DNA from: Gammaproteobacteria bacterium
GTDB taxonomy: Bacteria; Pseudomonadota; Gammaproteobacteria; Enterobacterales; Aeromonadaceae
Direction: 5' to 3'
DNA length: 36,714 nt
Assembly: GCA_018222825.1 (NCBI GenBank)
Contig: JAAEZO010000010.1
Coordinates: 1-36,714 of the forward strand
The notes below the pieces were generated by a model. The model was given only the letters and a program-made list of their open reading frames with translations. It made no database searches and was not told the DNA's origin. Within the stretch, counting starts at the first letter, position 1, and each line of letters starts with the position of its first letter. Shown here piece after piece: positions 4,909 to 28,207 of this stretch. Both the position numbers and the translations under genes were made by a program.

Positions 4909-6762
4909 TCATATCGACAGTTTGCTGAGACGCTTGCCGCCCCAGAGCAGGTTAACCAGGGCCCGGGTACCGACGATGGCGGTAAACATGGAGGCGAGAA
5001 TACCGATCATCAGCGTTACGGCGAAGCCCTTGATGGGGCCGGTGCCAACCGCAAACAGGATGATGGCGGTGATCAGCGTGGTGATGTTGGCATCGGCAAT
5101 GGTGCCAAGCGCCTTGTCATAGCCGATATGAATGGCCTGCTGCACCCCGCGCCCGTCACGCAGTTCCTCACGGATGCGCTCGAAGATCAGCACGTTGGCA
5201 TCCACCGACATACCGATGGTCAGCACGATACCGGCAATGCCCGGCAGCGTCATGGTTGCCCCCGGCACCATCGACATCACCCCGATGATGATCACCAGGT
5301 TGGCCAGCAGCGCCGCATTGGCCACCAGGCCGAACTTGCGGTAATAGATGGTCATGAACAACACCACCGCCAGCATGCCGTAGACCATGGCCATCAGACC
5401 ATTTTCCACGTTCTGCTTGCCCAGGCTCGGGCCTATGGTGCGCTCTTCCACTATCTGGATGGGCGCAATCAGGGCGCCGGCCCGCAACAACAGCGCCAGA
5501 TTCTGGGCTTCCGCCATGGAATCGATGCCGGTGATACGGAAACTGCGGCCCAGTCGCGACTGAATGGTGGCGACGTTGATCACTTCCTGCTGTTTGCGGA
5601 ACTGGCGAGTGCCGTCTTCATTCAGCTCATCACCGGTTTTGTACTCGGTAAACACCGTCGCCATGGGGCGGCCGACGTTATCCTTGGTAAAATCGGCCAT
5701 GCGGCTGCCACCGGGGGCATCCAGGCTGATATTCACCTGCGGACGGCTGAATTCATCCATGCCGGAGCTGGCATCGACGATATGCTCACCGGTCAGGATG
5801 ACGCGCTTTTGCAACACCACCGGGCGACCGTCACGGTCACGCAGCAGCTCGCTGTTGGGCGGAACCCGACCCGCATTGGCGGCGGCCACATCGGCATTTT
5901 CATCCACCAGGCGGAATTCCAGGGTTGCGGTAGCACCAAGAATTTCCTTGGCGCGGGCGGTGTCCTGAATACCCGGCAGCTGCACCACGATGCGCTCGGC
6001 ACCCTGACGCTGCACCAGCGGCTCGGCCACGCCCAGCTCGTTGACCCGATTGCGGATGATGGTGATGTTCTGCTGCAGGGCGTATTCTTTCACTTCCTTC
6101 AGCCGCTGTTCGCTCATCTCTGCGAACAATCCGAAGCTATCGCCATTATCGCGCTCGGAGAACATCAGGCCCGGATAGCGGCCGCGCAGGTGGCTGAGCG
6201 CCTTGTCGCGGGTGTCCGCATCACGGAATACCACCAGGGTGCCACCGTCTTTGGCCAGTACACCGGAATAACGCAGGCGCTGTTCGCGCAGGTCGGTACG
6301 GAAGTCCTGCACCGTTTGCTCCTGCACCCGGCTCAGGGCTTCGTCCATGTCCACTTCCATCAGGAAGTGCACGCCACCACGCAAATCGAGGCCAAGTTTG
6401 AGCGGGCCGGCGCCGATGGCTTCCAGCCAGGAAGGCGTCGACGGTGCCAGGTTGAGGGCGGTGATGTAACCATCACCCAAGGCTTCCGCCACCAGATCCT
6501 TGCCCTTGAGCTGGTCGTCGGTATTGCGGAAGCGGATAAGTAACTGATCATCGGCCAAGGCGGCACTTTTCACCGCGATGCCGGCCTTGCTTAGGGTCTG
6601 CTGAGCCTGAGTCAGGACGGCAGGGGTAACCTGAGTGCCACGGGAGCCCGACACCTGCAACGCAGGGTCTTCACCAAATAGATTGGGTGCTGCATACAGA
6701 AAACTGATGGTGATCACGGCGATCACCATCAAGTATTTCCACAGCGGATATCGATTTAACAC
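4909..6762 (-). CDS. secD: Protein translocase subunit SecD
   Basis: 617 residues (E. coli SecD 615). It is the large RND-like subunit of SecDF-YajC in the inner membrane, driving late steps of protein export. The N-terminus [13 protein letters not shown] is nearly the E. coli one, followed by one membrane helix, a long periplasmic region with the [15 protein letters not shown] motif (about residues 120-140), and five C-terminal helices including [18 protein letters not shown]. The start codon is GTG, as in E. coli, with GAGGAG 6 nt upstream. It sits between yajC and secF in the usual order. Confidence 0.97.
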
Positions 6763-8614: not shown

Positions 8615-9670
8615 CTATACTCCGGTCACTGCTTTTTTTGTAAGAAACATGGCGTCACCGTAGCTGAAGAAACGATAACGCTCGGCCACCGCCTGCCGGT
8701 AGGCTTCAATGATGTGATCGTAGCCGGCAAAGGCGCTAACCAGCATCAGCAGGGTCGATTCGGGCAGATGGAAATTGGTGACCATGGCATCCACCAGCTG
8801 AAAACGATAGCCGGGGTAGATAAAGATATCGGTGTCGCCGTAAAAAGGCGCCAGCGGCTCGCCCTTGGCCATGGTGGCCTGGGCCGCACTTTCCAGTGAA
8901 CGTACCGAGGTGGTGCCCACGGCAATCACTCGGCCGCCCCGGGCGCGAGTGGCTTCAATCTGTGCCACCACTTGTGGCGGTACTTCGATATATTCGGCAT
9001 GCATCTTGTGATCGAGCACCTGCTCGACCCGTACCGGCTGAAAGGTACCGGCGCCCACGTGCAGAGTAACGAAGGCCAGCTCGGCACCTTTGGCGGTCAG
9101 CGCGTCCAGCAGCGGCTGGTCGAAGTGCAGGCCGGCGGTCGGTGCGGCCACGGCGCCGGGCTTTTCGTTGTAAACGGTCTGATAACGCTCTTTGTCGGCG
9201 TCGGTATCGGGCCGATCGATATAGGGCGGCAGCGGCATGTGGCCGACCGCTTCGAGGATCTCGAGTACCGGTCTGTCGTCGTGAAATTCGATCTCGAACA
9301 GGGCGTCGTGGCGCGCCAGCATGGTGGCCTGCACGTTCGGTTCCAGGATCAGGGCGGTGCCCGGCTTGGGCGCCTTGGAGGCTCGAACATGCGCCAGTAC
9401 CCGCTTGTCGTCCAGCACCCGCTCGACCAGCACTTCCAGCTTGCCGCCGCTGGCCTTGTGGCCAAACAGACGGGCCGGAATCACCCGGGTGTTATTGAAC
9501 ACCAGCAGATCACCGGGGCTCACCAGATTCAGGATCTCGGCGAACTGACCATGGGTGATGTCACCACTGTTACCGTTCAGCTGCAACAGCCTACTGGCGG
9601 AGCGTTCCGGCATCGGATGGCGGGCTATCAGTTCGTCGGGAAGCTCAAAGGAAAAATCGCGGACCAGCAT
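8615..9670 (-). CDS. queA: S-adenosylmethionine:tRNA ribosyltransferase-isomerase QueA
   Basis: 351 residues (E. coli QueA 356). It transfers and rearranges the ribosyl group of SAM onto preQ1 in tRNA to give epoxyqueuosine, the step after Tgt. Family motifs include [12 protein letters not shown] near the start, the [15 protein letters not shown] block, and the C-terminal [19 protein letters not shown] and [16 protein letters not shown]. The ATG at 9670 has AGAGG 6 nt upstream. It is the first gene of the minus-strand queuosine/Sec cluster; a weak promoter candidate lies at 9698-9726. Confidence 0.97.
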
Positions 9671-18670: not shown

Positions 18671-18769
18671 ATCATTTTCATTAGCCGTTATTCACCGGGT
18701 ACAAACCGCGAAGCTGGCGCTTTTTAATCCGAAACAAAACAGTAAGTCATCACAAGGAGGAATAATCAC

Positions 18770-18790
18770 TTGATAGCTAAAAGCTATCAA
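18770..18790 (+). promoter_or_regulatory. OxyR half-site upstream of ahpC
   Basis: ATAG (18773-18776), seven bases, CTAT (18784-18787), with the internal T and A of the OxyR consensus ATAGnTnnnAnCTAT also present; the whole 21 bp is a palindrome with TTG/CAA ends. The second ATAG-N7-CTAT element of a full tetramer site is not evident 7 bp on either side. It lies about 20 bp upstream of the ahpC -35, the usual activator position. Confidence 0.7.
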
Positions 18791-18809
18791 TAAAGCAGAA
18801 AATAACGAA

Positions 18810-18838
18810 TTAACGAATCATTCATTCCCCTCTACTAT
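18810..18838 (+). promoter_or_regulatory. Promoter of ahpC
   Basis: TTAACG (4 of 6), a 17-nt spacer, then TACTAT (5 of 6). It predicts a start near 18845 and a leader of about 43 nt. A poor -35 next to an OxyR site fits an activated promoter. Confidence 0.5.
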
Positions 18839-18887
18839 GCTCCTCGTTCGCAAGACACACCCAAATCATGTCATTCAAGGAGTTAAT

Positions 18888-19454
18888 ATGTCCGTTGCCA
18901 TCAACACCGAAATCAAACCCTTCACCGCCCAGGCCTATCACAACGGCGACTTTGTGGAAGTGACCGAAGCCAGCCTGAAAGGCAAGTGGTCCGTGGTGTT
19001 CTTCTACCCGGCCGACTTCACCTTCGTCTGCCCCACCGAGCTGGGAGATCTGGCCGATCATTACGCCGAGTTGCAGCGCATGGGCGTTGAAGTGTTTTCG
19101 GTGTCTACCGACACCCACTTTACCCACAAGGCCTGGCACGACAGCTCCGACACCATCGGTAAAATCCAGTACTACATGGTCGGCGACCAGACCGGCACCA
19201 TCACCAACAACTTTGGCGTCATGCGTGAAGGCCAGGGCCTGGCAGACCGCGCCACCTTTATCATCGACCCGCAGGGCGTGATCCAGGCCATCGAAGTCAC
19301 CGCCGAAGGTATCGGCCGTGATGCCTCCGATCTGGTACGCAAGATCAAGGCAGCCCAGTATGTCGCCGCCCATCCGGGCGAAGTCTGCCCCGCCAAGTGG
19401 CAGGAAGGCGATGCAACGCTGGCTCCGTCCCTGGATCTGGTCGGCAAGATTTAA
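18888..19454 (+). CDS. ahpC: Alkyl hydroperoxide reductase AhpC (typical 2-Cys peroxiredoxin)
   Basis: 188 residues (E. coli AhpC 187). It reduces H2O2, organic peroxides and peroxynitrite in the cytoplasm and is recycled by AhpF. Peroxidatic cysteine C48 lies in FTFVCPTE and resolving cysteine C167 in GEVCPAKW; the family GG-like and YF regions are also present. The ATG at 18888 has AAGGAG 5 nt upstream; an in-frame start at 18837 overlaps the promoter. ahpF follows after 78 bp with no clear terminator, so a shared OxyR-controlled transcript is likely. Confidence 0.97.
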
Positions 19455-19532
19455 GACCTGAATAACATCCGGCCACCGAATAAAACCGGTGGCCGGGAAT
19501 GTTGCCCCCTTCATTCCGCACAGGACACGAAC

Positions 19533-21074
19533 ATGTTAGATGCCAATCTCAAGCAACAGCTGGACACTTACCTGCAGAACATCGTCTCTCCCATCGAGAT
19601 CAGCGTGTCCGGTGACCACGGCCCCAAGTCCAGAGAACTACTCGAGCTGGCTGGTGAAATCAGCGCGCTCTCTACTCATATCAGCCTGCGGGAAACCGCC
19701 GCCCGACGAACGCCCAGCATGAGCATTGCGGCTGCCAATCAGGCACCGCGCGTCAGCTTTGCCGGTATTCCCATGGGCCACGAATTCACCTCACTGGTAC
19801 TGGCCCTGCTGCAGGCCGGCGGCCATCCGTCCAAGGTCGCCCCCGAGTTGCAGGAGCAAATCCGCAACCTCGAAGGCGAGTACCATTTTGAAACCTATAT
19901 TTCCCTGTCCTGCCAGAACTGCCCGGATGTGGTGCAGGCATTGAACCTGATGGCCACCCTGAATCCGAATATCACCCACGAGATGATCGACGGCGCCCTA
20001 TTCCAGGAGGAAGTCAATCAGCGCCAGATCATGGCGGTGCCGTCGGTATATCTGAATGGCGAGCATTTCGGTCAGGGCCGCATGAGCCTGGAAGAAATCG
20101 TCGGCAAGCTGGACACCGGCGCCGCCGACCGCAAGGCCGCCGAGCTGAATGAACAGGCCCCCTTTGACGTACTGGTGGTGGGCGGTGGACCCGCCGGTGC
20201 CGCGGCCGCCATTTATGCCGCTCGCAAGGGCATTCGTACCGGTCTGGTAGCCGAGCGCTTCGGCGGTCAGGTAATGGATACCGTCGGTATCGAAAACTTT
20301 ATCTCGGTCCCCTATACCGAAGGCCCCAAGCTGGCCGCCAGCCTGGAACAGCACGTCAGGGAATACGGGGTAGAACTGATCACCAATCAGCGTGCCGCCG
20401 GTATCACCCGCTCTGAACTCATCGAAGTACCGCTGGCCAGTGGTGCCACCCTTAAAAGCCGTTCGGTGATCCTGGCGACCGGCGCCCGCTGGCGCGAGCT
20501 GAATGTTCCCGGTGAAGTGGAATACCGTAACAAGGGCGTGGCCTACTGCCCCCACTGCGATGGTCCCTTCTTCAAGGGCAAACGGGTGGCGGTAGTCGGT
20601 GGCGGTAATTCGGGTATTGAAGCGGCCATCGATCTGGCCGGGCTGGTCGAACACGTCACCGTGGTGGAGTTTGCCGATACGCTGCGTGCCGACGAGGTAT
20701 TACAGCGCAAGGCGCGTACCATGGGCAATATCGACATCATTACCCATGCCCAGACCACAGAGGTGGTGGGTGACGGCAACAAGGTGACCGGCATGCACTA
20801 CACCGACCGTGTCGGTGGCGAGAGTAAACAGCTGGAGGTAGCCGGCATCTTCGTGCAGATAGGGCTGGTGCCCAATACCGAATTTCTCAAGGGATCGGAG
20901 GTCGAGCTGACCCGCGTTGGCGAGGTGATGATCGACGCCAAAGGCGCCACCTCCATGACCGGCGTGTTCGCCGCCGGTGACGCCACTACCGTGCCCTACA
21001 AGCAGATCGTGATCTCGATGGGTGCCGGTGCCACCGCCGCCCTCGGCGCCTTCGATCATCTTATTAGAAGCTAA
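19533..21074 (+). CDS. ahpF: Alkyl hydroperoxide reductase subunit F (NADH:peroxiredoxin reductase)
   Basis: 513 residues (E. coli AhpF 521). It is a flavoprotein passing electrons from NADH through FAD and two disulfides to AhpC. The N-terminal double-thioredoxin domain carries C126-x-x-C129 (SCQNC); the thioredoxin-reductase part has the FAD motif [12 protein letters not shown] (about 214-225), the redox pair C338-x-x-C341 (YCPHC) and the NAD motif [13 protein letters not shown]-terminal [10 protein letters not shown] completes the FAD site. The ATG at 19533 has AGGA about 8 nt upstream. It is followed by a terminator at 21097-21131. Confidence 0.97.
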
Positions 21075-21096
21075 GGAATCAACATAAAGAAATAGA

Positions 21097-21131
21097 TGAG
21101 GGGACCAACAGGTAAGCTGCTGGTCCCCTCA
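21097..21131 (+). terminator. Terminator between ahpF and yejK (possibly bidirectional)
   Basis: Perfect 11-bp stem TGAGGGGACCA / TGGTCCCCTCA with an inner CAG/CTG pair in the 13-nt loop. On the plus strand it is followed by CGCCTTTTCCC, on the minus strand by TCTATTTCTTTA. It lies between the convergent ahpF and yejK stops. Confidence 0.75.
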
Positions 21132-21155
21132 CGCCTTTTCCCTCACGGTCTCTTG

Positions 21156-22151
21156 TCAGCCCTGTTGCAGCTGTGACTTGAGGTTGGGTGGCACGCCCCG
21201 AATCACCAGGGTGTCGGTAGCTGCATCGTACTGAATGCTCTCACCCAGCAATTTTTGATCGAAGCTGATGGTCAGGCCGCCACCGGAGCCGACGTATTTG
21301 GTCAGCCCCTTGAGCGCAGAACGGTCGACCGGAAACTTGTCTTCCAGCTGGTACTCTTCACTCACAAACTGGTAAAAGTCCAGATCGTCATCGGTACCCA
21401 GCTCCGCCGACAGCTCGCGTAGTTCCAGCTCTTCGCCTTCTTTCAGTTGCTCGCGGCAGTACTTGTTGACCAGCGCCTTGCTTTCCAGCTTTTCTTCCTT
21501 GCTGAGCTGGCGACTGTCACAGAACTCGTCCACCGCCTTCAGCAGGCCCTGGCTCTGGGCCTTGGGATCCATGCCCTCGACACAAGAAAGGAAGTTCAGG
21601 AAAAAATCCGACACCTTGCGCCCCGCCCGTCCCTTGATAAAGGAGAAGTAACGGTGCGAGTCGGGGCGACTCTGCAGCTCGGTCAAATCCAGACGGGCCG
21701 CCAGCTGCATCTTGCCCAGATCCAGATAGCTGGCCTGGCTGACTTCCAGCTTTTCGGTCACGGTGACGCTGTCCTTGTTATCCAGCAGCGCAATCAGCAG
21801 ATAATGCGCCCCCAGCCATTGATAGCGCACAAACAGCAGAACACCCTGCTCGCTCATGTCCAGCCGGTTCAGCTCGGCCAGCAGCCGCTCGGCCGCCTGA
21901 TGGGTAAAAGCAGCAAAGCTCAGGCTTTGATCTTCCACCCGCCGCACCAGATCGCGAAAGCCGCTATCGTCTTCGTTGAAATAGCCGAACACCTTGCCGG
22001 CCTTGGTGTTGTAGATGTGATGCAGCTCGCCCATCAAGTGATTAACCGCCGGCCCGGTGGCCAGCTCCTGCTCCCGGGTGGCCAGCCGGGTTTGGCCCTG
22101 CTCATCCAGAAACAGGGAGTGTACTATGATGTGTTCGATGTCCAGGCTCAT
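21156..22151 (-). CDS. yejK: Nucleoid-associated protein YejK (NdpA)
   Basis: 331 residues (E. coli YejK 335). It is a cytoplasmic nucleoid-associated protein of unclear molecular role. The opening MSLDIEHIIVHSL and the C-terminal block FPVDRSALKGLTKYVGSGGGLTISFD, with PPNLKSQLQ at the end, are characteristic. The ATG at 22151 lacks a strong ribosome site. A TATAAT hexamer lies upstream on the minus strand (22187-22192). In E. coli and relatives yejK is directly divergent from yejL; here about 3.9 kb separates them, and the yejK upstream region is repeated before yejL. Confidence 0.95.
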   Translation of the reverse strand: MSLDIEHIIVHSLFLDEQGQTRLATREQELATGPAVNHLMGELHHIYNTKAGKVFGYFNEDDSGFRDLVRRVEDQSLSFAAFTHQAAERLLAELNRLDMSEQGVLLFVRYQWLGAHYLLIALLDNKDSVTVTEKLEVSQASYLDLGKMQLAARLDLTELQSRPDSHRYFSFIKGRAGRKVSDFFLNFLSCVEGMDPKAQSQGLLKAVDEFCDSRQLSKEEKLESKALVNKYCREQLKEGEELELRELSAELGTDDDLDFYQFVSEEYQLEDKFPVDRSALKGLTKYVGSGGGLTISFDQKLLGESIQYDAATDTLVIRGVPPNLKSQLQQG

Positions 22152-22216
22152 AACAGATTGCCGTAGAGTTGCAGAAAAAGAGCACCATTATAAACACCCG
22201 CTAGCCAAGTTACATG
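22146..22216 (+). repeat. Left copy of an imperfect direct repeat flanking the inserted regulator/peroxidase module
   Basis: 71 bp from inside the yejK start codon region outward. It shares with 26009-26080 an exact 26-bp core (22146-22171), then CAGAA, ATTATA in the middle, and an exact 12-bp end CCAAGTTACATG (22205-22216). The intervening bases differ, with a 1-bp length difference. It includes the first six bases of yejK and its TATAAT hexamer. Confidence 0.85.
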
Positions 22217-22239
22217 GCCGGGCAACCTTGCACGGACCA

Positions 22240-22917
22240 TTAAAAGTGGTTGTTGTTGTCGTCGACGGCAATCTTGCTGGCCAGACCCATCAATTCAAGG
22301 CGGCCGGAAACATGCAACTTGGTGTAAATGGCAGTGAGGTGGTTTCTCAAGGTATGTTCGCTGATATGCATTTCTTCGGCCAGCTTGCGTATTGATGTGC
22401 CCCCCCTGCTGGTAATGCAGTGGTAAACATCCCGCTCGCGCCGGGTGAGCTTGTTGAGCAGTTGGCTGGCAGCGGGCGTTCCTTCATCAGCCATTCCCTG
22501 CAGTATGCGACTAGTGAGCCGGCGATCCAGCCAGTGTTCTCCACAATGAACAGCAAAAATGGCCTTGAGCAGCACCTCGTTCGGCGCCTGTTTGGGAACC
22601 ACTCCCCGAAGCCCTTTTCTCACCGCTTCGTCTACCAACTCCTGGCTTGCCGAGCCCAGCAGAGCCACAATGGCAACCTCGCTATCCCGCCCCAACAGGC
22701 AAACGCACTCCCGGCCCAGCACCGAGTCGAGATCGGTCACTATGATGCCGGCACCAAATTCTCGGGCACAGGCCAAGCCTTCATGAGTACGAATGGCGCC
22801 AGCCCATTCCACCCCCGGCGTACCGGTGCGCAACAGGGTTTCCAGCCCCAGCATCAGGGCCGAACAACTGGAAACCGCCAGCACCCGCGGAGGAATTTCA
22901 CGCCTGGAGTTAGTCAC
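22240..22917 (-). CDS. LuxR/NarL-family regulator with a degenerate receiver domain
   Basis: 225 residues. The C-terminal part (about 155-215) is a LuxR-type helix-turn-helix, LTRRERDVYHCI...SIRKLAEEMHISEHTLRNHL. The N-terminal part (about 10-130) looks like a response-regulator receiver, with a candidate phospho-acceptor D62 in IIVTDLDS and K109 in VVPKQAP, but the acidic pair expected after the first strand is replaced by SSCS. It may therefore work without phosphorylation. No sensor kinase gene is adjacent. The start codon is GTG with AAGGAAGGAAAG upstream. It is divergent from the di-haem peroxidase gene and is its likely regulator (inference). Confidence 0.85.
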   Translation of the reverse strand: MTNSRREIPPRVLAVSSCSALMLGLETLLRTGTPGVEWAGAIRTHEGLACAREFGAGIIVTDLDSVLGRECVCLLGRDSEVAIVALLGSASQELVDEAVRKGLRGVVPKQAPNEVLLKAIFAVHCGEHWLDRRLTSRILQGMADEGTPAASQLLNKLTRRERDVYHCITSRGGTSIRKLAEEMHISEHTLRNHLTAIYTKLHVSGRLELMGLASKIAVDDNNNHF

Positions 22918-23067
22918 CTTTCCTTCCTTGCATGTTGGAATGTCATGGGAGAAGTGTCCTGTGTTTTCCTTCGAATTTTAGTTCAACTCACCCGGCAAGA
23001 TAGGGATATCTGCCTCAGGCGCCCTTTTTCGGCCTTTCTTACGCTTGTAACAGCCTTTGAAAAAAGG

Positions 23068-23118
23068 CAGGGCTTGCTGAAGGCAAGAATAACGAACAAT
23101 GGTCACCGGCAAGCCCTG
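23068..23118. promoter_or_regulatory. Inverted repeat upstream of the di-haem peroxidase gene
   Basis: Perfect 10-bp arms CAGGGCTTGC (23068-23077) and GCAAGCCCTG (23109-23118), 31 bp apart, ending 45 bp before the ATG. A second small hairpin GCCTTT-gaaa-AAAGGC (23053-23068) adjoins the left arm. It could be a regulator-binding site or a leader structure; no clear -35/-10 pair is seen. Confidence 0.4.
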
Positions 23119-23163
23119 AGTCAAAAAACAACCAGGGCACCGCACGTGCTTAAGGAGTAAAAC

Positions 23164-25929
23164 ATGGACAACAAGCTTGGAGCTCATCGACGGCACCACG
23201 CCTTTCTTTGGGGGGGATTGGTGGCGGTGATGGTGGTCGCATCGGGCGCATCGGCTCAGCGGTTTGAGCCACCTGCGGTGGCACCTCTCAACAAGATTAC
23301 GGTACCGGATATTAATAAGTTGGGGATTCTGGATGGTGCTGCGCCCGATGACTTTCCTGATGCCATTCTTGGAAACTGGCCCGTCATCACAAACACCGAA
23401 AAACGAACCGATTTGCAGCGCCTGGGCAAGGCTCTGTTCTGGGATATGCAGGTGGGCAGTGACGGCATCACCGCCTGCGCCAGCTGTCACTATCACGCCG
23501 GCGCCGATCACCGCAGCAAGAACCAGATCAGCCCTGGGCTCAAGCGCGGTGATGATGTTCATGATCTTGCAGGGCTCGGCACCGCCAATGGCCAGCTACT
23601 CAACAACCCCCATTATATGGGGATAAATGACTTTGGCACCGAGGTGGGGTTTGCGGTCAACGAAAACGAGCTGCTGACTAATCAGGGCTGGTCAGTTGAT
23701 GCCGTCGACGGCACTCCCGGCAACGGTGGCAAGGGGAATACTGCCTTTGATATCAACGATGTGGCTTCTTCCCAGGGACAACGAGCCGGTACCTTTACCG
23801 CGCTCTCCGGTGGCCGGGTTGATAGCGGAACCTTGGACACTGATGACAATGGCCAAGGCTTTACCGTCGGCTTTCCCTCAAATGCACTGAATATTCCCGA
23901 CACCGCCCGGCGGGTGGAGCCGCGCAATGCTCCCACCGTGATCAATGCCGTGTATAACCTGCGCAACTTCTGGGATGGCCGCGCCGATACCTTCTTTAAC
24001 GGCGTTAGCCCCCTCGGATTCAGGGATCCCGGCGCTCAGGTACCAACCTACACAGGCGGCAACGATTTCACTCCGGAAACCCTGCGGATCCCCTTTTCCG
24101 CCCTGGCGTCTCAGGCCGTGGGCCCGCCACTGAGCAATTTTGAGATGTCGTTTGCCAACCGCAACTTCGCCCATATCGGTAAAAAGCTCGGTGGATCCAC
24201 CATACCGCTGAACGGCCAGAAGGTCGCCTGTGACGATGACTTGCTAAGTAGCTGGGCCATCTGTGGCGGTACCGGGTTAAACCAAAATTACCATACCCTG
24301 GTGAAGGACATCTTTGATGAGCGCTTCTGGGGCGATGGTAACGGCGCTGAAGTATGCGTGGAAATTGTGAATAATGAACCGCAGTTCAATACCTGTGACG
24401 GTAATGAAGACTTCACCCTGCTGGAATACAACTTCGCCCTGTTCTTTGGCCTGGCGGTGCAGGCCTATGAGGCCACGCTGACGTCCGACTACACCATTGT
24501 CGATCTGCTGGCCGGCGGTATCGCCACCGGTACCGTGACCAATGGCACCGGCCGACGCCAGCTCTCATTTGTCGTTGATGGGCAGCCACTTGAGGCTTGC
24601 GTAAATGCCCTGGCGCTGAACAATAACGCCGCGGGCGTGGCCGATGCCGAGCAAGTCTGTGCCGAACATTACGCCAGCTTTATTCCCGTTGGTGCCGTGG
24701 CCGGCTCGGAAATAAATACGGCCACTCAAGATTTCGCCACTGTAGTGAATCCCGGTGCCTCCATTGGCCTTTGCAATAATCCCCCCACCTGTAATGACGT
24801 GGTGGACAATGCAAATATTCTGGCCGATGCCGTCAGCACCCTGCAGGCCATCGACCGAGGTGTGGGCCGCTTCTTTGCCGGGGCCACGGGCTGTGGTATC
24901 TGCCACTTCAACCCGGAATTTACCGGGGCCACCGTGTCCGCCCTTACCGGCTTTGGTGCAGTGCCGCCACCGCCACTACCCCCCGGCCAGTTGCGCAAGG
25001 AAGCCCTGGAGGTACCCCTGGAGCGGATGATCACCTTTAACGGCCAAGCCCAGGTGTATGATGCCGGCTTCTACAATATCGGCGTCAGACCCAGCTCGGA
25101 TGATATTTCTCTGGGGGATATCATCAACGGTGTACCGCTGTCCTTTTCCTGGCTGCGGGAAACCATTTTACGTCGTCAACTGAATGAAGAAGAGCTAGCT
25201 TTTCTGGATCCGGCTCTTTCAGACGCCAATGTCGACGCGGTAGCGCAAGTGATCGACAACGGCGAGCTGTTGATTCCCACCGCCCCCGATGATCTGACCC
25301 CAAGGGTGTTCGACCTAGCGCTGGCCTGTGGTCCGGGTCTGGTGGGCAACCCTAATGCCCAGGGGCGGCGCAACGGCGACCCCAACAATAACCCCAACGT
25401 TAACTGTGTACCGGATGTGGTTATCGGGGAGAAAATCCTGCGCTACGGCGCCTTCAAGGCCTCAGGCCTGCGCAACGTGAAGTACACCGGTCCTTATTTC
25501 CACAACGGCGCCAAGAAAAACCTGCGCCAGGTAGTGGAAACCTACAAGACCGCCGGGCACTTCCCGACCATCAACTTCAACAACCTAGACGCCGGTATGC
25601 GGGAGTTTGATCTCGGAGCGCAAGACGAAGCCTCGTTGGTGGAAATGCTGGAAACCGGGTTAACGGACTGGAGAGTGGCACTTGAATCCGGCAAATTCAG
25701 TCACCCGCAGTTGTGTATTCCCCACGGTCACAACGACGATACCGGTGAGACCATTCTGGTCAATATTGCGGAAGTCGGTGCCGCCGGCCACAACACCCTT
25801 CTGCAGACTTTCGAGGGTCAGCTGACAGATGCTGCAGGGATTCATGACCTGCAGGATCCCTGTGAGATGCCGACCATATCGAACGCCGCCGGGCTGTCGA
25901 TGATCGACGTACCGCCAGCGGCGCCATAA
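23164..25929 (+). CDS. Large di-haem cytochrome c peroxidase / MauG-family protein, exported
   Basis: 921 residues, more than twice the usual 320-400 of bacterial di-haem cytochrome c peroxidases. A signal peptide ends near residue 31 (ASA-QR). Haem motifs are CASCH (C105, C108, H109) and CGICH (C577, C580, H581). Family landmarks are RNAPTVINAVYN...FWDGRAD (about 254-275) between the haems and, near the C-terminus, FKASGLRNVKYTGPYFHNGAKKNLRQVVETY. Inserted regions hold more than ten further cysteines, suggesting disulfide-stabilised periplasmic loops. The ATG has AAGGAG 8 nt upstream. Peroxidase, a MauG-like oxidation or another activity cannot be told apart by sequence. It ends in a strong terminator, and its divergent neighbour is a LuxR-type regulator. 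Confidence 0.88.
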   Translation: MDNKLGAHRRHHAFLWGGLVAVMVVASGASAQRFEPPAVAPLNKITVPDINKLGILDGAAPDDFPDAILGNWPVITNTEKRTDLQRLGKALFWDMQVGSDGITACASCHYHAGADHRSKNQISPGLKRGDDVHDLAGLGTANGQLLNNPHYMGINDFGTEVGFAVNENELLTNQGWSVDAVDGTPGNGGKGNTAFDINDVASSQGQRAGTFTALSGGRVDSGTLDTDDNGQGFTVGFPSNALNIPDTARRVEPRNAPTVINAVYNLRNFWDGRADTFFNGVSPLGFRDPGAQVPTYTGGNDFTPETLRIPFSALASQAVGPPLSNFEMSFANRNFAHIGKKLGGSTIPLNGQKVACDDDLLSSWAICGGTGLNQNYHTLVKDIFDERFWGDGNGAEVCVEIVNNEPQFNTCDGNEDFTLLEYNFALFFGLAVQAYEATLTSDYTIVDLLAGGIATGTVTNGTGRRQLSFVVDGQPLEACVNALALNNNAAGVADAEQVCAEHYASFIPVGAVAGSEINTATQDFATVVNPGASIGLCNNPPTCNDVVDNANILADAVSTLQAIDRGVGRFFAGATGCGICHFNPEFTGATVSALTGFGAVPPPPLPPGQLRKEALEVPLERMITFNGQAQVYDAGFYNIGVRPSSDDISLGDIINGVPLSFSWLRETILRRQLNEEELAFLDPALSDANVDAVAQVIDNGELLIPTAPDDLTPRVFDLALACGPGLVGNPNAQGRRNGDPNNNPNVNCVPDVVIGEKILRYGAFKASGLRNVKYTGPYFHNGAKKNLRQVVETYKTAGHFPTINFNNLDAGMREFDLGAQDEASLVEMLETGLTDWRVALESGKFSHPQLCIPHGHNDDTGETILVNIAEVGAAGHNTLLQTFEGQLTDAAGIHDLQDPCEMPTISNAAGLSMIDVPPAAP

Positions 25930-25955
25930 GCCTGAACATGAGGTAACACGCAGCG

Positions 25956-25981
25956 ACGGCCCCTTGAGGGGCCGTTTTTTT
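25956..25981 (+). terminator. Rho-independent terminator after the di-haem peroxidase gene
   Basis: Perfect 8-bp GC-rich stem ACGGCCCC / GGGGCCGT with loop TTGA, followed by a run of seven T residues starting within the stem. It lies 26 bp after the stop codon. Confidence 0.92.
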
Positions 25982-26008
25982 GCAGCCCCTGGCTCACTCA
26001 GCGGTCGA

Positions 26009-26080
26009 GCTCATAACAGATTGCCGTAGAGTTGCCAGAAGGGGTGGGGTATTATAGTCATCCTGTTACCAAGTTACATG
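26009..26080 (+). repeat. Right copy of the imperfect direct repeat flanking the inserted module
   Basis: 72 bp matching 22146-22216: an exact 26-bp core (26009-26034), CCAGAA, a central ATTATA (26051-26056), and an exact 12-bp end CCAAGTTACATG (26069-26080). The core still carries the reverse complement of ATGAGC, the first two codons of yejK, after which similarity to yejK stops. It lies directly before yejL and presumably carries its promoter. Confidence 0.85.
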
Positions 26081-26091
26081 ATTGAACGCCC

Positions 26092-26319
26092 ATGCCTGTT
26101 ATTTCCAAGTACGACAAACAATTTGATCAACTTCTGAGCGAGCTGGAAGCCGTGATGGACAAACATCTGGCCCCCGCCGATCTGCGGTTGATGGTGCTGG
26201 GTAACCTGGCTACCCACATCATCAATCATCAGATAGCGCCGGGGCAGCGTAAAGCCATTGCCGACAAGTTCGCCAAGGTACTCACCAGCTCGGTTGACAC
26301 CCAGAAAGGGGCTCACTAA
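26092..26319 (+). CDS. yejL: YejL family protein (UPF0352)
   Basis: 75 residues, the same length as E. coli YejL, with the family pattern MPVISKY...LMVLGNLATHIINHQIAPGQRKAIADKFAKVL. It is a small alpha-helical cytoplasmic protein of unknown function. It precedes yejM by 28 bp, the conserved order, but is no longer adjacent to yejK. Confidence 0.93.
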   Translation: MPVISKYDKQFDQLLSELEAVMDKHLAPADLRLMVLGNLATHIINHQIAPGQRKAIADKFAKVLTSSVDTQKGAH

Positions 26320-26347: not shown

Positions 26348-28207
26348 ATGATGCTCGATACCGGTAATATCTATCGCGACAATGTCTCTCGCCTGATTGG
26401 GTGGGGCCACTGGATGGTGCTTTTTAATATCCTGCTGGCGCTGGCGGTATCGAGTCGTTACCTGCTGATTGCCGGCTGGCCCGATACCCTGCTGGGTGGC
26501 GGCTATATGCTGGTCAGCTGGATCGGGCATTTCGCCTTTCTCACCTTCTTTACCTATCTGCTGACGCTGTTTCCGCTGACCTTTCTGTTTCCGAAGGTAC
26601 GAGCCGTACAGTTGCTGGGTGCCGCCATCGCCACCGGGGCACTGACCCTGCTGCTGGTAGACACCCAGGTGTTCAGCCTGTTCAGCTTTCATCTTAACCC
26701 GACCGTCTGGCAACTGCTGCTGGAGCAGGCTCAGGCCGAAGAAGCGTCCGGCTGGGGCTGGCTGTTCGTGTGGGTGCCGGTGCTGTTTCTATTTGAACTG
26801 TGGCTGGCCGGCTGGCTCTGGCGTTGGAGCCAGCGTCGTCGTCGCTCGCTGACATTGCCCCTGGCGCTGCCCCTGCTGGTGAGTTTTTTTCTCACCCACA
26901 GCGTCCATATCTGGGCCGATGCGCTGGTATACGCCCCGATCACCAATCAGAAAGCCAATTTTCCACTGTCTTACCCGATGACCGCCAAGAGCTTCCTCAT
27001 CAAACAGGGCTGGCTGGATGAAGATCAATATCGCCAGTTGTCACAACAGGTGGCAGAGCAACCCCGGCGGCGGTTGAATTACCCGCTGCGCCCGCTGTCG
27101 GTACAGGCGCCGGACGCCTCGCCCAACATTCTGCTGGTGGTAGCGGATGGCCTGCGCGCCGATCAGCTCGATGCCATCACCATGCCTAATCTGAATCGTT
27201 TCGCCCATCGTCATCTGCGTTTCGATAATCATCTGAGTGCCGGTAATCAGCCCCGCTCCGCGCTGTTCAGCCTGTTTTACAGCCTGCCGTCTCATTACCA
27301 GCGCGATGCCGAGCAGGAAGGCATAGCCCCGGTATTGATCGACGAACTGCAGCGCCAGGACTACCGTTTCGGCCTCTTTGCCAGCGGCGGTCTGGATAAA
27401 CCACTGTACCGTAATGCCATTTTTTCGACCCTGCGCAATCAGTCATTCAATCCGGCTACCGGCGGTGCCGCAGGTGATCGCCAAGCCGTCACCGATTTCG
27501 GCCATTGGCTGGAACAACAGGATAACGAACGCCCCTGGTTTTCTTTCGTCTACCTGGATGCACTCAACTCGCTGGATCTGCCCGCCGGTATTAAAGGACC
27601 CTTCCAGCCTTCGCTGCAGCAACTTAACCCGGCTCAGGCCTATCGAGACGAGCAACGCGAGGCCCTGTTCAACCGCTATCGCAATTCGGTGTTCTATACC
27701 GATCGCCTGCTGGGGCAGTTACTGTCAAAAATCAGGCAGGCCGAGGAGCGCGGCACCCTGATCATCGTCACCTCCGGCCACGGTATGGAATTCAACGATA
27801 ACGACAATAATACCTGGGGATTCGGCAGCGCCTACTCGCCTTATCAGCTGCGAGTGCCTCTGGTTGTCGACTGGCCGGGTGAACGCCAGCCCGCCCGCTA
27901 CGATCACCCGACCAGCCAGCTGGATCTGGTGCCCACCCTGATGCGCCAGGCGCTGGGCGTACAGAGTCCGCTGCGTAGTTACAGTACCGGCCAATCCTTG
28001 TTCAAGGCAGACGCCAATCGCTGGCGACTGGCATCGGATGAAGAAGAATATGTTATCTATCAACAGGATGACATTACCCGCTTTAACCGTCAGGGTGACG
28101 TTGAGTTGTTGCGGGCAAGAGACTATAAAACCGAGCCGAATGCCAGCCCGGAATTGTCATTGCTGTTACAGGTGATGGACGACCTGAATCGTTTTCAGGG
28201 AAAGTAA
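26348..28207 (+). CDS. yejM: Inner-membrane LPS-homeostasis regulator YejM (LapC/PbgA)
   Basis: 619 residues (E. coli YejM 586). In E. coli it senses LPS in the inner membrane and controls LpxC degradation through LapB/FtsH. The N-terminal part (about 1-190) has five membrane helices with the conserved SWGHW-like opening (GWGHWMVLFNILLALAVSSRY) and HLNPTVWQLL; the rest is a periplasmic alkaline-phosphatase-like fold with NILLVVADGLRADQLDAITMPNL and STGQSLF. The C-terminus SPELSLLLQVMDDLNRFQGK matches the E. coli tail. Two adjacent ATGs occur; 26348 is used. It is probably co-transcribed with yejL. Confidence 0.94.
   Translation: MMLDTGNIYRDNVSRLIGWGHWMVLFNILLALAVSSRYLLIAGWPDTLLGGGYMLVSWIGHFAFLTFFTYLLTLFPLTFLFPKVRAVQLLGAAIATGALTLLLVDTQVFSLFSFHLNPTVWQLLLEQAQAEEASGWGWLFVWVPVLFLFELWLAGWLWRWSQRRRRSLTLPLALPLLVSFFLTHSVHIWADALVYAPITNQKANFPLSYPMTAKSFLIKQGWLDEDQYRQLSQQVAEQPRRRLNYPLRPLSVQAPDASPNILLVVADGLRADQLDAITMPNLNRFAHRHLRFDNHLSAGNQPRSALFSLFYSLPSHYQRDAEQEGIAPVLIDELQRQDYRFGLFASGGLDKPLYRNAIFSTLRNQSFNPATGGAAGDRQAVTDFGHWLEQQDNERPWFSFVYLDALNSLDLPAGIKGPFQPSLQQLNPAQAYRDEQREALFNRYRNSVFYTDRLLGQLLSKIRQAEERGTLIIVTSGHGMEFNDNDNNTWGFGSAYSPYQLRVPLVVDWPGERQPARYDHPTSQLDLVPTLMRQALGVQSPLRSYSTGQSLFKADANRWRLASDEEEYVIYQQDDITRFNRQGDVELLRARDYKTEPNASPELSLLLQVMDDLNRFQGK

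Follow-up and report, generated by a model that had tools for sequence, protein, structure and literature searches.

A regulator-peroxidase gene pair between yejK and yejL is flanked by two unequal copies of their shared intergenic region

How do foreign genes come to lie between two back-to-back housekeeping genes so that neither of them is silenced? The question is raised by a 36,714-nucleotide stretch of contig JAAEZO010000010.1 (assembly GCA_018222825.1, a gammaproteobacterium of the Aeromonadaceae), referred to below as the window. In it the divergent genes yejK (21156-22151, minus strand) and yejL (26092-26319, plus strand) are separated by a module of two genes, one for a LuxR/NarL-type regulator (22240-22917, minus strand; 225 residues, GTG start) and one for a large di-haem peroxidase of the CCP/MauG superfamily (23164-25929, plus strand; 921 residues, two CXXCH motifs). 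A first-pass annotation had placed both genes between yejK and yejL, and Pfam identified them in the same way (GerE, PF00196, and CCP_MauG, PF03150). The account at which we arrived, and to which we give slightly better than an even chance, is that of a horizontally acquired two-gene module residing in an old insertion-duplication allele, which was brought in by recombination within a 27-base-pair (bp) core that is repeated on either side of the module.

The repeats on which this account rests were measured by a direct-repeat search. It returned an exact repeat of 27 bp at 22146-22172 and 26009-26035 (spacing 3863), the left copy of which comprises codons 1 and 2 of yejK and the yejK leader, and a second pair at 22187-22216 and 26051-26080 (30 bp, 77% identity, spacing 3864). 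Together they delimit a block of 71 bp on the left (22146-22216) and 72 bp on the right (26009-26080), with the exact core at one end, an ATTATA in register and 12 exact bases at the other end. The first-pass annotation had described the same segments, ATTATA and 12-bp end included, and had given the exact core as 26 bp; the core is real and its length needed correction. It had also seen that the right copy retains the first six bases of yejK, which was confirmed: ATGAGC opens a frame of six codons (MSSTAE) followed by a stop, reading towards the intrinsic terminator 3' of the peroxidase gene (25955-25976, plus strand). When the 27-mer was excluded, the inner arms of the two copies aligned with a score of 11, which none of 20,000 mononucleotide shuffles reached (best 3); their similarity is thus not a matter of chance. 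Beyond the block no clear similarity was found (8 of 30 positions identical upstream, 11 of 30 downstream). In its own genome the 27-mer occurs at just these two sites, even when up to three mismatches are allowed. An inverted match of 13 bases (92%) to a stretch of the core is located at 22262-22274, inside the regulator gene and 46 bp from the left repeat; as one of 37 inverted pairs, it may be chance.

The empty site that an insertion leads one to expect, with a single copy of the segment, is present in the relatives. In all 22 congeners yejK and yejL are divergent and separated by 76-81 bp holding one copy. We found yejK in 68 of the 80 genomes searched, own genome included, and at each of the 29 relative loci examined (the 22 congeners and seven more distant genomes, with gaps of 73-80 bp) yejL stands beside it. 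No match to the regulator was obtained in the 22 congeners at an expect value (E) of 1e-15, and none to the peroxidase in the 79 other genomes, congeners included, at 1e-10. A search across the order covered 247 genomes, own genome included, and matched yejL in 168 and yejK in 185; 129 genomes, a lower bound, had both genes among the matches listed and on one contig, with G025 excluded for a split match and G106 for want of yejL in the list. Among these listed matches 127 of the 129 genomes have a yejK-yejL gap of 64-465 bp with no other element in between; the distances in the remaining two are 127 and 287 kb. The idea that the gap is an insertion hotspot was rejected, as no second element appeared in those 127 genomes. 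Because the relatives show the empty site and no match to the module, the arrangement is derived and, among the genomes examined, unique to this species. The 22 empty sites support the original suggestion of an insertion that duplicated the region shared by yejK and yejL. Neither of the two patterns named as contrary to it, a module in all relatives or two copies in genomes lacking the module, was encountered; the relatives have no module and a single copy.

The two copies are far from equal. The right one is identical to the four nearest congeners in 70-71 of 72-73 columns, the left one in 54-55, and on this comparison the right copy is the intact native region of the genus type. Between left and right inner arms 29 of 45 positions agree, which is below the agreement of the right arm with any of the 22 congeners (lowest 36 of 49). 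The left copy keeps the yejK leader, ATTATA and CCAAGTTACATG and is diverged elsewhere: in a gapped alignment it matches at 26 of 27 columns of the leader block, 6 of 6 of ATTATA, 12 of 12 of the terminal block and 12 of the remaining 27, so that its inner columns carry 15 substitutions in 27 in addition to a 1-base gap. It deviates at 11 of the 48 columns that are invariant in the right copy and 19 congeners, and at 5 of the 24 variable ones (the count leaves aside three of the 22, whose gap differs in length). These departures at genus-invariant columns outside the three blocks suggest that constraint has been lifted there.

Position and conservation suggest what that constraint may have been. 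The native region would hold two overlapping divergent promoters. A -10 box can be proposed for each of them from inspection of the sequence and comparison of columns. One faces yejK, a minus-strand TATAAT that lies at 35 bp from the start of this gene and occurs in both copies (22187-22192 in the left one); the other faces yejL, an overlapping plus-strand TATTAT (26050-26055) at a distance of 36 bp from the start of that gene. The left copy has CATTAT in place of the yejL-facing box but an intact TATAAT towards yejK; it would now act as a promoter of yejK only. Transcripts from a yejL-facing promoter at this place would run into the 3' end of the regulator gene, and the loss of such a promoter may thereby have been favoured. 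The terminator scan listed none between the regulator stop codon and yejK, so the regulator transcript may run on into yejK.

The divergence of the left copy also bears on its age. Compared in 300-bp steps with the nearest species (G019), yejK is 92-95% and yejL-yejM 91-97% identical, right up to the junctions, and no tract of other ancestry is seen. The left copy probably predates the insertion in this lineage, since decay in place would call for 15 substitutions in 27 columns since the split from G019; the Poisson probability of at least 14 changes in 26 sites is 0.001 if a generous 0.2 changes per site are assumed and 7e-7 if 0.1. Local replication slippage or a recent tandem duplication, which had been among the origins first put forward for the repeats, was rejected because the left inner arm is far too diverged for flanks that are 91-97% identical. 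The same figures make it very improbable that a staggered break or slippage recently duplicated 71 bp at the moment of insertion and that the left copy then decayed rapidly in place. Module and duplicated block do meet precisely at their ends, as they would after a target-site duplication; however, the 15 substitutions and the gap contrast with a divergence of about 3-9% in the flanking genes, the Poisson values are as low as stated, and the target duplications usually made by transposases are much shorter than 71 bp.

A left copy that predates its arrival is what an imported allele would have. According to this proposal, the module would have inserted between yejK and yejL and duplicated the 71-bp divergent promoter region that they share, and the present left copy would be the module-side copy of that old insertion-duplication allele. 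Serving yejK alone, it would have lost the features that face yejL and retained the leader of yejK, the TATAAT and the 12-bp end. The allele would then have been imported by recombination after the split from the nearest examined relative. The yejL-side crossover is proposed to have fallen inside the 27-bp core, which would be why the right copy stayed native. As the outcome, two single-purpose promoters would replace one shared divergent promoter.

Several observations weigh against this proposal. The flanks show no donor tract, and no donor carrying this arrangement turned up in the species-genome scan (best 80 of 398 matches), in the 22 congeners, or among plasmids, phages and viral contigs. 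The three conserved blocks of the left copy were picked after the alignment had been seen, which weakens the test built on them, and a consensus promoter scan scored neither the yejK nor the yejL promoter that we propose. The left arm has, in addition, a second resemblance: its bases 22173-22196 match, at 22 of 24 positions, the start-codon stretch of a gene of 134 residues in the congeners G005 and G014 (loci L141 and L142, each at 1501-1524), where some 80 kb separate this gene from yejK. Eight other congener loci of 18 kb reach 15-17 of 24 positions. With E at about 0.007 per genome over 22 genomes, the match is probably chance, and another or a patchwork origin of the stretch is less likely. 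Descent of the left arm from the yejK region is favoured because of the in-register ATTATA and the 12-bp end. Queries laid over the junctions gave little else: a 110-base query over the left one found, besides itself, one 24-base match in 2 of the 22 congeners, and a 93-base query over the right one found, besides itself, matches of 26-29 bases within the terminator stretch in 3 of the 22.

The assembly itself is incomplete (84.76%) and fragmented (330 contigs), and an assembly error is therefore formally possible, again to the disadvantage of the imported allele. Together with the exact repeats at both joins, this could mean that two genomes were joined artificially through the 27-bp repeat. 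We give such an artefact hardly any credence. Since the left arm is a diverged homologue of the yejK promoter region, a foreign partner genome would have had to be arranged in the same way; moreover, the two module genes have open frames, and each flank is collinear with the nearest relative.

An older event in the same lineage would do without a donor. If the module had inserted in an ancestor of several species and had since been lost elsewhere by deletion between the 27-bp repeats, recombination between the cores would have removed the left arm along with the module, leaving a perfect empty site with the native region, and the strong divergence of the left arm would be accounted for. Repeated independent losses would be needed, however, as all 22 congeners are empty, the nearest among them, and the yejK leader in the right copy, now useless, is unaltered. 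We regard this history as quite unlikely.

Whether the module is, or was, mobile in its own right was judged from its gene content and from database matches. As the first-pass annotation had remarked, no recombinase is in sight: a Pfam scan of 26 window proteins, a subset of the open reading frames that includes both module genes, detected no integrase, excisionase or transposase (cut-offs 1e-3, 1e-10 and 1e-6). Of the features that define an integrative element, the terminal direct repeats and the single-copy empty site are present and the recombinase gene is lacking. Those of a transposon are lacking as well, with no transposase among the scanned proteins and a duplication of 71-72 bp, and none of the 25 inverted pairs listed, of 37 in all, joins the module ends. 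In viral contigs the 27-mer had no exact match and the peroxidase one relative (31%); the module had no match in phages; and plasmids yielded weak matches to the peroxidase domain only (seven records, none covering 80% of the query, and six records by DNA). A known mobile element as carrier was rejected on the strength of these plasmid, phage and viral-contig searches.

Harder to set aside is a small integrative element, complete or as a remnant, that lacks its own recombinase. A circle of 3.86 kb bearing the core and a replacement promoter for yejK would have entered by a single crossover at the core. The geometry of the product fits, with the core at both ends, a native yejL side and an element-borne promoter on the yejK side, and both genes and both arms fit one unit of 3863 bp. 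There is precedent, too, for elements that bring new promoters: as described in an excerpt of PMC8409611, integrative elements at the 5' ends of genes, such as IMEVchUSA3 at dusA and SXT at prfC, supply the gene with a new promoter. Like the module, they sit where a housekeeping gene starts and carry in a diverged promoter, there along with a new N-terminus; unlike it, they carry integrase and excision genes. The module has 3.86 kb, two cargo genes and no recombinase found, and leaves the yejK coding sequence unaltered. Against the circle stand the recombinase-free scan of the window proteins, the 127 order genomes with no other element between the two genes among the matches listed, and three related modules without flanking repeats of at least 11 bp in the flanks compared. 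We consider it unlikely. An attL/attR-like origin of the repeats, which the first-pass annotation had suggested, agrees with the geometry, but neither an integrase nor a second element at this site nor a circular form was found. Its strongest form, a recombinase-less, site-specific 3.86-kb cassette that travels among relatives as a circle with its own yejK promoter, appears to us improbable; if it were true, the entry of the cassette at the 27-bp core would split an overlapping divergent promoter with yejK and yejL never being silenced. The imported allele, the circle and the ancient insertion lost elsewhere all lead to the same product and are inseparable without a donor.

The origin of the module was approached through its relatives. 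A pattern-based scan of one genome per species (84,980 species) gave 398 matches to the peroxidase, of which the best 80 were kept. Within these the nearest, at 62-64% identity, are those of Marinobacter pelagius, M. orientalis and Kineobactrum sediminis, and in all three genomes the peroxidase gene belongs to the same divergent regulator-peroxidase pair, in the same order and with a block of the control region in common. The neighbours are different, and neither yejK nor yejL is present at any of the five relative loci examined, which include two with a peroxidase but no detectable regulator, in a UBA6915 metagenome-assembled genome (50%) and in Moritella dasanensis (42%). The first-pass annotation had recommended a search for the pair at other loci with similar flanks; it does occur at other loci, but the flanks compared at the Marinobacter and Kineobactrum loci contain no repeats of at least 11 bp. 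By locus handle, none of that length was found at L034, L035 and L038, and L036 has one of 12 bp. The duplication is consequently not a property of the module, as related pairs reside elsewhere without such repeats.

The sites of these pairs tell something of their spread. Downstream of the pair M. pelagius and M. orientalis share stretches of 920 and 135 bp in a different order, which indicates that their sites are partly related, and Kineobactrum shares nothing with the Marinobacter loci outside the pair. Over the pair itself the DNA of M. orientalis is 78% identical to that of Kineobactrum versus 74% to that of M. pelagius; this closer resemblance to the other genus points to horizontal transfer.

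In Moritella dasanensis (L037) the peroxidase gene is flanked by a direct repeat of another kind, 476 bp long and 82% identical (5224-5699 and 8978-9453), with a 64-bp exact stretch. The repeat is a flavin-reductase gene, truncated in the left copy and intact in the right. The intact copy is nearest to that of another Moritella which also has the peroxidase beside a flavin-reductase gene, and among the eight matching genomes of 11 Moritella, M. dasanensis alone has a second copy. From the sequences this looks like a similar additive kind of event, yet an independent one.

What the two genes do was read from their domains and from aligned relatives. The regulator is 51-56% identical to the partner genes of the three related peroxidases and reached no NCBIfam equivalog cut-off. 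Its residues D62 and K109 are invariant in all four proteins, and near the N-terminus of the receiver it has SS where the three relatives have SD, a position that we take to be the N-terminal acidic site of the receiver (D62 and K109 presumably being receiver positions likewise). With SS in place of SD, the regulator may not depend on phosphorylation. The peroxidase matches CCP_MauG with 57.5 bits against a cut-off of 25.6, and its haem motifs C105-C108-H109 and C577-C580-H581 are invariant in six of six aligned proteins. It stays far below the NCBIfam cut-offs for MbnH and MauG (TIGR04039, 58.3 versus 362.85; TIGR03791, 52.6 versus 443.85), and solved di-haem peroxidases and MauG match it over best stretches of 25-88 residues; a structure model was unusable (mean predicted local distance difference test score 30.6). 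Compared with its three relatives the gene differs most at third codon positions (0.56-0.59 versus 0.19-0.27), the pattern that a gene maintained by selection should show. The protein is likely an exported or periplasmic redox enzyme of the peroxidase/MauG superfamily, and our guess is that the regulator controls it locally. The divergent control region between the two genes (22918-23163) contains a block, AGAWAGGGA...CTCAGGC, that a four-locus alignment revealed in all four related pairs, including those of Marinobacter and Kineobactrum, and that is a possible operator of the regulator; a fuller inverted repeat, GCCT-C-AGGC, is found in two of the four, those of the window and of M. pelagius.

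Events of these kinds are known. The locus, a plain example of the gain of foreign genes, is a new instance that comes with a promoter comparison and does not represent a genetic element of a new kind. The excerpted text of PMC5361080 proposes homology-facilitated illegitimate recombination for the type VI effector-immunity arrays of Vibrio. There, as here, a module is gained beside a retained piece of the target with a homology anchor on one side, whereas the retained piece is an immunity gene in those arrays and a promoter region in ours. The anchor exists at the module (27 bp, at yejK), and the illegitimate joint would lie at 26008/26009. The unconventional circularizable structures treated in a portion of PMC7843796, in which genes lie between mutually recombining direct repeats, resemble the module in their flanking repeats and in that no recombinase of its own was found here; they differ in that their repeats are usually long, in contrast to 27 exact bp. 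PMC4924310, as far as its excerpt goes, lists yejK, yejL and yejM followed by prophage genes, with no insertion between yejK and yejL. Among the papers listed by a literature search on genomic islands and integration sites none contained yejK, those listed by a search with Marinobacter had nothing on the regulator-peroxidase pair in titles and abstract openings, and a search on duplication brought up a plant paper; we make no claim that either is absent from print.

The locus offers a well-delimited natural split of what appears to be an overlapping divergent promoter, and 22 relatives in which it is unsplit allow a base-by-base comparison with both copies. The comparison suggests which bases serve yejK and which yejL, and how foreign genes can join between back-to-back housekeeping genes with neither silenced. 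The locus also marks a horizontally spread pair in which a regulator accompanies a large di-haem peroxidase.

Apart from the module the neighbourhood has the normal yej arrangement by NCBIfam names. The intact yejK, for the nucleoid-associated protein YejK, scores 410.9 bits with NF001557 (cut-off 341) and is 97% identical to the nearest congeners; yejL, likewise intact, scores 97.1 bits with PRK13689 (cut-off 90); yejM (26348-28207, plus strand) scores 500.9 bits with NF038282, below the cut-off of 825; and ahpF (19533-21074, plus strand) passes the curated cut-off of TIGR03140. The GC content at third codon positions of the module genes (0.650 and 0.658) is at the low edge of the range of ten other window genes (0.658-0.812) and is not decisive. 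The spacer between ahpF and yejK is less similar to G019 than the yej genes are (76% in the step 21000-21300). The ahpF-bearing block next to yejK (18684-21153) finds no alignment in the corresponding region of G015 and only a partial one in G014; judged by these alignments, the downstream side of yejK is likewise variable within the genus.

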